Virus record (IMG/VR): IMGVR_UViG_3300017917_001940
Location: 62,001 to 126,000 of that record
DNA length: 64,000 nucleotides
Reading direction: 5' to 3' (one strand)
Origin: a virus
Shown piece by piece: positions 10,611 to 31,036 of the stretch (its first letter is position 1; each line of letters opens with the position of its first letter). A program made the translations under genes and the position numbers. The notes beneath the pieces were generated by a model. The model did not search any database. It was not told the DNA's origin and saw nothing but the letters and a program-made list of their open reading frames with translations.

Positions 10611-10663
10611 CTAAGTCATTGATTCTTAAGGAAAAAAATTTCTATATAAATCAATGACTTAGC
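10610..10663. repeat. 15-bp perfect inverted repeat carrying the AAATCAATGACTTAGC element
   Basis: GCTAAGTCATTGATT (10610-10624) and its reverse complement (10649-10663) flank a 24-nt A/T-rich centre. The right arm is one of four copies of a conserved element found just upstream of early promoters. It starts at the stop of the preceding gene, so it may also act as a transcript-end hairpin. Confidence 0.75.
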
Positions 10664-19037: not shown

Positions 19038-19406
19038 ATGACAGAATATCTTGAAGCATTTGGTACTACCCTTGTTGTTTTTGGTGTTGTTCTCTATGCG
19101 GTCATGTGGTTGATCGCACAGTGGCTCAAACGAGTGAACACTCGATTAGAAGCACAACTTGAAGCAATCCAAGAGGCCATTGAATCTAAATTTATCCAGT
19201 TAGATGTTGAGATTGACAACGGCATCTATTACTGCTATAATATAAAGGATCATGAATTTATATGCCAAGGTTCTACAGCCCGAGAGATCAAGGATGCGTT
19301 TGATGCTCGATTCCCAGGTAAAGTGGCTATCTTGAACAATGCTGACCGTGAGGAATTGGCTGACTTAAAAGCACAAATATTGGAGATGAAAACAAGTGAA
19401 AGCTAA
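19038..19406 (+). CDS. membrane-anchored coiled-coil protein, 122 aa
   Basis: A 122-aa protein with an N-terminal membrane helix (about 9-30), a charged coiled coil (KRVNTRLEAQLEAIQEAIES) and a small C-terminal domain. AGGAGAG precedes the ATG. The 3' end overlaps the next gene by 11 bases. Similar proteins occur in aquatic phages; no function is known to me. Confidence 0.65.
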   Translation: MTEYLEAFGTTLVVFGVVLYAVMWLIAQWLKRVNTRLEAQLEAIQEAIESKFIQLDVEIDNGIYYCYNIKDHEFICQGSTAREIKDAFDARFPGKVAILNNADREELADLKAQILEMKTSES

Positions 19407-24436: not shown

Positions 24437-24624
24437 TGAACGAAGAACGTCAATTAGTAGCACAAGCCGTCCTGGCTGGTGACTTGGATGCCGATCAGCT
24501 TACATGGGAAGAAGTTCAAGAAATTGAATTACTAGTAGCTGATTTGGTTGCTGAAAAAACATTGATTGAGCAGGCCAAGTTAGGCAAGAATGTATTTGCC
24601 CACTATTCGGATATCATTCAATGA
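24433..24624 (+). CDS. hypothetical acidic helical protein, 63 aa
   Basis: A 63-aa protein, all helical and acidic. Two consecutive ATG codons (24433 and 24436) overlap the preceding stop; either may be the start. Overlaps the following gene by four bases. Confidence 0.55.
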   Translation: MMNEERQLVAQAVLAGDLDADQLTWEEVQEIELLVADLVAEKTLIEQAKLGKNVFAHYSDIIQ

Positions 24625-24956
24625 ATCATCAGTTTATTGTCATGTGGGATTGTTACGGGCTGGAAGTATGCTGTGATGTAACCGAAGCACAACAACGGGC
24701 AGTTTGGGAAGAACTGCAAGGCAAAGGTGTCAGTGAAAGTGGCATACCAAGTTTAGGTCACCTAACACTTCGTGCTCGCTACAACCCACAGAGACATTAT
24801 GAAATTTACATTATCGAAGCAGTTGAAGGCATTGGTGCTATCGACATTCGACAAATGTTTGAAGAAGATCCACAAGGTGCGGCTGATACAATTCGCCGCT
24901 TAGGTACTTGTGTTTACAGTGACAAGGTTGACAAGGAGAACCGTGTGATTGTATAA
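24621..24956 (+). CDS. hypothetical protein, 111 aa, with sRNA promoter in its 3' end
   Basis: A 111-aa alpha/beta protein (starts MNHQFIVMWDCYGLEVCCDV). Its last 30 bases contain TTGACA and TATAAT boxes (24928-24957) that appear to drive the structured RNA directly downstream; the -10 overlaps the stop codon. Function unknown. Confidence 0.65.
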   Translation: MNHQFIVMWDCYGLEVCCDVTEAQQRAVWEELQGKGVSESGIPSLGHLTLRARYNPQRHYEIYIIEAVEGIGAIDIRQMFEEDPQGAADTIRRLGTCVYSDKVDKENRVIV

Positions 24957-24957
24957 T
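24928..24957 (+). promoter_or_regulatory. sigma70 promoter TTGACA-N18-TATAAT for the RNA gene
   Basis: Both boxes match the consensus exactly: TTGACA (24928-24933), 18-bp spacer, TATAAT (24952-24957). It lies in the 3' end of a coding gene with no gene start downstream for 340 bases, so it most likely drives the RNA at about 24964-25213. Confidence 0.75.
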
Positions 24958-24963
24958 GGTTAC

Positions 24964-25213
24964 TGGTTGCGGAGTAACGCCCGCTAGTCTGACCCGGACG
25001 AAAAGTGGAATGTTAACCACGGGTGGTTCCCGTTTAACCCTAACGGGCGTTGGCAGCACGACAGCGGCCCATGGTGAGGAGCGGATACCTCGTAAGCAGG
25101 CAGTTGGTCTATACTCGACTTTTAGGGCGATAATCCTAGATTGAAGCGGTGAGCTAGACAGCTTGAAGGTGGAAAGATAAATGTAACCGCCGGTGGGTGC
25201 AGAGCACCTTTTT
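24964..25213 (+). ncRNA. candidate structured small RNA, about 250 nt
   Basis: A GC-rich stretch between a consensus promoter (24928) and a terminator (25196-25213). It holds many helices: AACGCCCG (24976-24983) with CGGGCGTT (25044-25051), ACGGG/CCCGT (25019-25033), GAGG/CCTC (25076-25091) and a TTAGG/CCTAG and an AGCT/AGCT hairpin further on. GTTAC/GTAAC (24959-24978) competes with the long-range stem. The only reading frame across it (24956-25144) has no convincing protein features. It matches no tRNA, tmRNA, RNase P or 6S core I know. Just upstream of the helicase/methyltransferase cassette. Confidence 0.65.
25196..25213 (+). terminator. intrinsic terminator of the RNA gene
   Basis: GGTGC (25196-25200), loop AGA, GCACC (25204-25208), five T residues (25209-25213). 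Confidence 0.8.
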
Positions 25214-25241: not shown

Positions 25242-25270
25242 TTGACCAAAATCACATAGTTTGCTATAAT
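25242..25270 (+). promoter_or_regulatory. early-type promoter TTGACC-N17-TATAAT
   Basis: TTGACC (25242-25247), spacer aaaatcacatagtttgc, TATAAT (25265-25270). It heads the helicase/methyltransferase cassette. Confidence 0.82.
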
Positions 25271-30518: not shown

Positions 30519-30604
30519 ATATGTATATGCTAAGAAATTGGCATATTAGTAGTAAAATTAATTTTATTAAACTTGTAAGGCAACTTAAGAAAGGCAACAC
30601 AAAA

Positions 30605-30919
30605 ATGGCAACAGAAAAACTCTTTACAGTAGCAGGCACAGCAAAAAACGCTGATGGTACAGTTAAAGCTCGCTTCGCAAATGACTTGGTAGCTCGTATC
30701 AAGATCTTGAACAAAGCAGGTTGTACTGATATCGATCTCATTGAGCTACCAAAGGCAATGACTAAGTTGGAGGCTTTGCAACATCTTCAGACTCTAGGTA
30801 AGACTGGTGATGCGGCTTATGCAGTAGCCAACAAGTTGGCTGAGAAAACTAAGATCGCCAAGCGTGATCAGGTTAAGATCGCCAGCAAGTCAGAGACTCG
30901 TGTAGCTGACGAAGCCTAA
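30605..30919 (+). CDS. early protein, paralogue of the gene at 10736
   Basis: A 104-aa protein starting MATEKLFTVAGTAKNADGTV (an in-frame ATG at 30521 lies next to the -10 and has no ribosome site). It shares its domain pattern with the N-terminus of the protein at 10736. Own promoter upstream and terminator downstream. Probably abundant; function unknown. Confidence 0.7.
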   Translation: MATEKLFTVAGTAKNADGTVKARFANDLVARIKILNKAGCTDIDLIELPKAMTKLEALQHLQTLGKTGDAAYAVANKLAEKTKIAKRDQVKIASKSETRVADEA

Positions 30920-30985
30920 TTAAGGCAGGGTGGCAGGACGCTGGGTGTAGGCCCAGACTGTAAGTCCACCCAACAGAATTCAACC
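30920..30985 (+). ncRNA. structured stretch, possible RNA element B
   Basis: Nested stems GGGT/ACCC, GGAC/GTCC and TGGG/CCCA at about 30928-30971, with the motif order GGCAG...TGGG...GTAAGTCC also seen at 11404-11515. It lies between the gene at 30605 and its terminator, so it is part of that transcript. Could be a 3' stabiliser or regulatory element. Confidence 0.4.
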
Positions 30986-31018
30986 AAAAGCGGTGTATTT
31001 GATGCACCGCTTTTCCTT
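30986..31018 (+). terminator. intrinsic terminator
   Basis: AAAAGCGGTG (30986-30995) pairs with CACCGCTTTT (31005-31014), 9-nt loop, followed by CCTTTT. Confidence 0.85.
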
Positions 31019-31036
31019 TTGGCATAAATTAGTAGT

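Follow-up and report, generated by a model that had tools for sequence, protein, structure and literature searches.

A covarying structured RNA family of uncultured phages, often encoded in tRNA arrays

Results

A non-coding RNA gene behind a small phage gene

The window, as we call the whole 64,000-nucleotide stretch that was analysed, corresponds to positions 62001-126000 of a 129,829-bp IMG/VR virus record; the features of the RNA locus described here lie on the + strand. Positions 24965-25206 almost certainly form a structured, non-coding RNA gene, with bounds taken from the covariance model of its family (R1, see below) and a transcript that probably extends to about 25213. Upstream lies a gene for a protein of 111 residues (24621-24956), which had no match in Pfam or PHROG, and the 3′ end of this gene contains a promoter, TTGACA (24928-24933)-18-TATAAT (24952-24957), that agrees with the consensus at 12 of 12 positions (24928-24957). 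The family-defined 5′ end of the RNA, at 24965, is 7 nt past the end of the −10 box. Three exact 12/12 promoters are found in the window, against 0.05 expected from shuffles; the other two sigma-70 promoters are at 19213 and 30490. An intrinsic terminator, GGUGC-AGA-GCACC-UUUUU, spans 25196-25213. Both signals had been described in an initial annotation, made from the sequence alone, and both were confirmed. The same annotation regarded the RNA as a stand-alone gene with its own promoter, which is correct for the window phage but not as a feature of the family: in relatives, the RNA begins 2 nt behind a tRNA or 3-8 nt behind a stop codon, and a consensus promoter is absent. Because the perfect promoter is not conserved in the relatives, transcription from it in the window phage is a prediction only.

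The stretch from 24928 to 25213 has a G+C content of 53.5%, as compared with a genome mean of 39.7%, and ranks among the highest 0.06% of 256-nt segments, in line with the GC richness noted initially. The same stretch could in principle encode a small protein of 62 residues (24956-25144), whose ATG overlaps the stop codon of the upstream gene. We give this possibility almost no weight. The frame scored −0.22 per codon, below random codons, whereas 12 of 12 comparison genes scored positive; used as a query against viral contigs it found no relatives; and the relatives of the locus are dominated by RNA pairing changes and length changes. The earlier view that there is no convincing protein here is therefore sustained. 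The single-sequence folding energy of the window RNA, however, is average (z = +0.36 versus shuffles), and since the window sequence alone gives little structural evidence, the case for a structure had to rest on relatives.

Relatives define a family among uncultured phages

A BLASTN search with the window RNA against phages and plasmids returned nothing, and the RNA was present in none of the 47 contigs that carry a relative of the downstream helicase; two faint matches among these loci, the stronger of which (L042) lies inside a coding gene, were taken as chance. An 18-mer from the 5′ part of the RNA matched only one repeated, unrelated sequence. The first relatives, G053 and G052, came from contigs that encode a relative of a structural protein, and the G053 RNA is 68% identical to the window copy across nearly its whole length. 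A motif common to these two, GACCCGNAYGA...CACGGGTGG, was used to scan IMG/VR and yielded 53 stretches, with 32 contigs as members. Two later scans, whose motifs were taken from elsewhere in the RNA, gave at least 120 matches each; in the last scan the model matched in all 57 loci searched, some of which run off the contig end. The family collected in this way comprises at least 142 distinct sequences on at least 154 contigs, counting the window and its closest relatives, with a median length of 201 nt and a usual range of about 170-265 nt. The carriers are pieces of uncultured phage genomes, and many of the searched records are fragmentary. The RNA was found in 21 of 21 carrier records, as a single copy in 20 and with a further, weak match in the remaining one. 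L141, a phage rich in tRNAs with its main copy at 2049-2290, has a second, weak R1 match (32.6 bits) at 2742-2884 on the − strand.

No relative was found among 50,697 phage records, queried with the window copy and other members, or among 72,556 plasmids, in sequence searches that could miss divergent members. Two strict patterns, which divergent members could likewise escape, had no match in 84,980 bacterial and archaeal species genomes. A match of 26 nt in the DNA polymerase region of Pseudomonas phage PIP was treated as chance. At the gathering score, Rfam matched neither the window nor the RNA part of member loci, and at E ≤ 10 nothing beyond chance was detected in the window RNA or in the members L130 and L164. 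Nor did the RNA match tRNA, tmRNA, RNase P, self-splicing introns or known ribozymes by Rfam or ARAGORN. The proposal that it is a structured RNA outside the known classes thus holds.

Covariation supports a pseudoknotted fold

The covariance model R1 was built from 29 phage members aligned by MAFFT on sequence alone; the window copy was kept out of this seed. A covariance search had been suggested in the initial annotation, and R1, a model derived from related phage sequences, found the window full length, at 99.6 bits (E 1.2e-29) over model positions 1-199 of 199. The structure, including the pseudoknot, was drawn by eye from one of the 29 aligned sequences. In the MAFFT alignment, 95.6% of cells formed standard pairs, as compared with 77.1% after shuffling and 34-52% when the partners were slid, a comparison in which the drawing by eye gives the unslid version an advantage in cells paired, not in counts of two-sided changes. 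Two-sided changes were seen in 26 of 40 pairs, and there were 204 double-changed cells versus 67 in the shuffled alignments. In an alignment of 98 sequences, two-sided changes occurred in 33 of the 40 pairs and 97.4% of cells paired; as the sequences here were aligned to the model, the 29-sequence MAFFT test is the less biased of the two. RNAalifold by itself recovered P1-P3, most of P4, and P6-P8. It also offered alternatives that clash with P5 and the pseudoknot; these were rejected, because two-sided changes are absent from them and compensation is seen in both P5 and the pseudoknot. On this comparative evidence, the fold comprises a pseudoknot together with seven or eight helices, with hairpins P1-P5 followed by a 3′ domain closed by P6 and P7. 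In the window copy, P1-P5, the pseudoknot, P6 and P7 all map to standard pairs except for one A-C in P1.

P1, the first helix, is a hairpin at 24969-24984 (GCGG-AGUAACGC-CCGC, 24969-24972 with 24981-24984), with two-sided changes in all five pairs across 95 sequences and 98.5% of cells paired. P2, the second helix (GUCU-GACCC-GGAC, 24987-24999), shows G-C/C-G swaps and is 98.9% paired. The ACCC of its loop (24992-24995) forms the pseudoknot with GGGU (25021-25024), an element spanning 24992-25024 for which the compensated variants GUCC/GGAC and GCCC/GGGC exist; two of its four pairs never vary, and its bases were fixed by design in the first motif scan and free in the other two. P3 (GUGG-AAUGUUAA-CCAC, 25005-25020; helix 4 in our count) has two-sided changes in 4 of 4 pairs. 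P4 (CCCGUU-UAACCCU-AACGGG, 25029-25047; helix 5) has them in 5 of 6, and carries inserted hairpins in some relatives. The last base of P3 covaries with the P4 loop (18/3 versus 1/73, raw counts across related sequences), a probable tertiary covariation that hints at a contact. P5 (CGU-UGGCAGC-ACG, 25048-25060) has a closing pair that is C-G, U-A or G-C and a family loop UGGCARY.

The 3′ domain is closed by the long-range stem P6 (25067-25198), in which GCCCAU (25067-25072) pairs with GUGGGU (25193-25198); P6, helix 7 in our count, has two-sided changes in all six pairs and is 98.9% paired. Within it, P7 (25081-25190) joins GCGG (25081-25084) to CCGC (25187-25190), a combination replaced by GUGG/CCAC in relatives. 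The interior of the domain (25085-25186) is variable. It is closed by P8 in most relatives; in the window copy, about 100 nt of this region form an insert relative to the model, unaligned to it, and P8 was not placed. The 5′ arm of the terminator overlaps the 3′ strand of P6, so that the two are mutually exclusive; termination and the final fold would thus follow one another in time, unless P6 is weak in this copy. The ends of the RNA are conserved, with GAACGU at the 5′ end and GCAGAGCA at the 3′ end.

A different long-range stem of 8 bp, AACGCCCG/CGGGCGTT, had been proposed from the window sequence. It would tie up the 3′ strand of P1 as well as that of P4. The inverted repeat is at chance level (P = 0.27, being found in 27% of shuffles), and a pairing check showed it to be unconserved, with 48.8% of cells paired versus 48.0% in shuffled alignments. 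The switch that was to arise from competition between this stem and a GTTAC/GTAAC hairpin fares no better: the hairpin overlaps the conserved P1, and the stem is the unconserved one.

Two genomic niches and varied neighbours

A tRNA or tmRNA was present in the fetched locus of 82 of the 93 members examined, and within 200 nt in 69; where there was one, the nearest was on the same strand as the RNA in every case (82/82). For 50 of the 93 members, the RNA starts within 20 nt downstream of a tRNA, mostly at 2 nt, and the neighbouring tRNA varies. The second niche is that of the window: the RNA follows the stop codon of a homologue of the 111-aa gene at a distance of 3-9 nt. Nine loci share it, namely the window and eight others with such a homologue 3-8 nt 5′ of the RNA (L267, L268, L269, L124, L158, L111, L211 and L230), the homology being judged from printed protein starts. 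Searches for tRNAs found none in the window phage, G052, G053, G087 (317 kb) or G101 (213 kb), all five of which carry the RNA. A permuted tmRNA of the Betaproteobacteria type is encoded by the phage near the RNA in L108, L126, L144, L188 and L207, and its occurrence in several carriers suggests hosts of that kind. In L056 and L057, the genes that flank the L099 copy upstream and downstream adjoin each other with no RNA between them, and the RNA is therefore accessory.

The genes downstream differ between members and include tRNAs, a MazG-like gene, an RpoZ-like gene and others. The MazG-like gene is downstream in L168, L226 and L207 and upstream in L188; the RpoZ-like gene is beside the RNA in L145. 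In the window, the RNA had been described as sitting directly before a helicase/methyltransferase cassette, but this neighbour is incidental, given the helicase-relative contigs that lack the RNA. The conserved 19-base element reported to follow the RNA is indeed recurrent; it is, however, part of the promoter of the next gene and separate from the RNA. This helicase-gene promoter, TTGACC-17-TATAAT (25242-25270), matches the consensus at 11 of 12 positions with a TG before the −10 box, is repeated in the window phage and is kept in L016. The recurrent promoter, of the form TTGAC[AC]-17-TATAAT-like and often with TTTGC before the −10 box, occurs at window positions 10639, 12752, 23826, 25242, 29269 and 34193, and is common to L016.

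Elsewhere in the window, the interval 30921-31020, which follows the gene at 30521-30919, is G+C-rich and has an anticodon-arm-like stretch, CAGACTGTAAGTC, and then a strong terminator, AAAAGCGGTG...CACCGCTTTT; ARAGORN and Rfam found nothing convincing there. In L245, an apparent homologue of the 30521-30919 gene is located 126 nt before a member of the RNA family.

Discussion

The RNA described here is non-coding, has a conserved fold, is normally single-copy, and is placed either within a tRNA array or immediately after one particular small gene. In most phages it would be cut out of a longer tRNA or mRNA transcript, release by cleavage being suggested by the position of its 5′ end, right next to a CCA end or a stop codon; the window phage, with its perfect promoter and terminator, would make it directly. 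With less certainty, the mature RNA may be a stable trans-acting RNA or an RNA-protein particle. Speculatively, and on the basis of its gene neighbourhood, it could serve phage translation or the takeover of the host translation machinery. It accompanies tRNAs, and sometimes tmRNA, yet is present without detectable phage tRNAs in five records. Taken as a whole, the statement that the window RNA belongs to a new family of phage structural RNAs with a role in trans in translation or takeover is the one we favour, with some reserve. A broader formulation is put forward more tentatively, as something we would not yet expect to hold in full: a new class of phage RNA machine, pseudoknotted and about 200 nt long, which would arise either by processing of tRNA precursors or from a promoter of its own, would act in trans on a host defence or on the host's translation apparatus, and would be spread across jumbo and mid-sized phages whose hosts are probably Betaproteobacteria.

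The gene arrangement suggests that the RNA does not regulate its neighbours, in view of the varied downstream genes and, here, of the terminator and the separate promoter ahead of the helicase. A riboswitch or attenuator of the helicase/methyltransferase cassette, the function implied by the switch proposed initially, would account for the position just before the cassette; it is nevertheless close to refuted, since its long-range stem is unconserved, helicase relatives come without the RNA, and other members precede quite different genes. No conserved association with, or transcription into, one class of downstream gene was found. A cis-acting element that processes, stabilises or self-cleaves its own transcript, the fold protecting or cutting it with no independent life, deserves more attention, in that the RNA has conserved ends and starts close behind CCA (2 nt) or a stop codon (3-9 nt). 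We think it improbable all the same: in the window the unit has its own promoter and terminator and is otherwise empty, the tRNA neighbours are many and different with one copy per genome, the size and high conservation go beyond those of a simple end-protector, and Rfam offers no known-ribozyme match.

Somewhat less improbable, though still unlikely, is a counter-defence decoy or inhibitor, an RNA that mimics the substrate of a host RNase, a tRNA-targeting toxin or another RNA-binding defence protein. The placement of the RNA would then mean that it and the phage tRNAs travel together, both answering tRNA-targeting defences. Such a role is consistent with its home in tRNA arrays and with its accessory distribution, as in the L099 and L056/L057 comparison, and phage tRNAs have themselves been proposed to evade tRNA-targeting host defences (PMC10264068). 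Rfam and ARAGORN, however, reveal no resemblance to tRNA, and the many strictly conserved loop bases meet no obvious need in a simple decoy. We retain the structural RNA with a role in translation or takeover as the preferred reading. Phage biology gains an RNA family that is widespread and covaries strongly, with no entry in Rfam and, as far as the searches reach, no occurrence in cultured phages. It offers a compact model for the role of the extra RNAs in phage tRNA arrays (T4 RNA C and D, GOLLD, ROOL), and its carriers without tRNAs allow the RNA to be separated from tRNA function.

How the family relates to these RNAs can be stated in some detail. Assembly into RNA-only multimeric cages is a trait of the GOLLD and ROOL class. 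Both are elaborate, structured, phage-encoded RNAs of unknown function, often near tRNA islands and also found in prophages, and many GOLLD RNAs exceed 800 nt (PMC12286853). The new family resembles them in being phage-encoded, elaborately structured and near tRNA genes. It differs from many GOLLD RNAs in its length, and from both classes in that their Rfam models had no match in the window, in member loci at the gathering score or in three members at E ≤ 10; moreover, GOLLD and ROOL reach prophages, whereas the two strict patterns of the new family had no match in bacterial genomes. The RNA C and RNA D of T4 (species 1 and 2) are small, stable, late RNAs of the tRNA array, of unknown function (PMC9697503). 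They too are phage tRNA-array RNAs beside a tRNA, but are 139 and 119 nt long and reach a best R1 score of 4 bits with filters off, and RNA C has at its end a tRNA-like T arm, which the new family lacks. Kinship with them was considered and rejected: the GAACGTTC in common is a mere palindrome, and R1 has no match. The two-piece (permuted) tmRNA of Betaproteobacteria is encoded close to the RNA in some carrier phages; it is a separate gene, and the RNA studied here has no tmRNA match by Rfam or ARAGORN. In the literature on phage and tRNA-array RNAs we found no description of the family, most subscription papers being beyond our reach, and a prior description in the unsearched literature is possible. 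The family matches no catalogued RNA; its niche, that of the phage tRNA-array RNA, is one already known.
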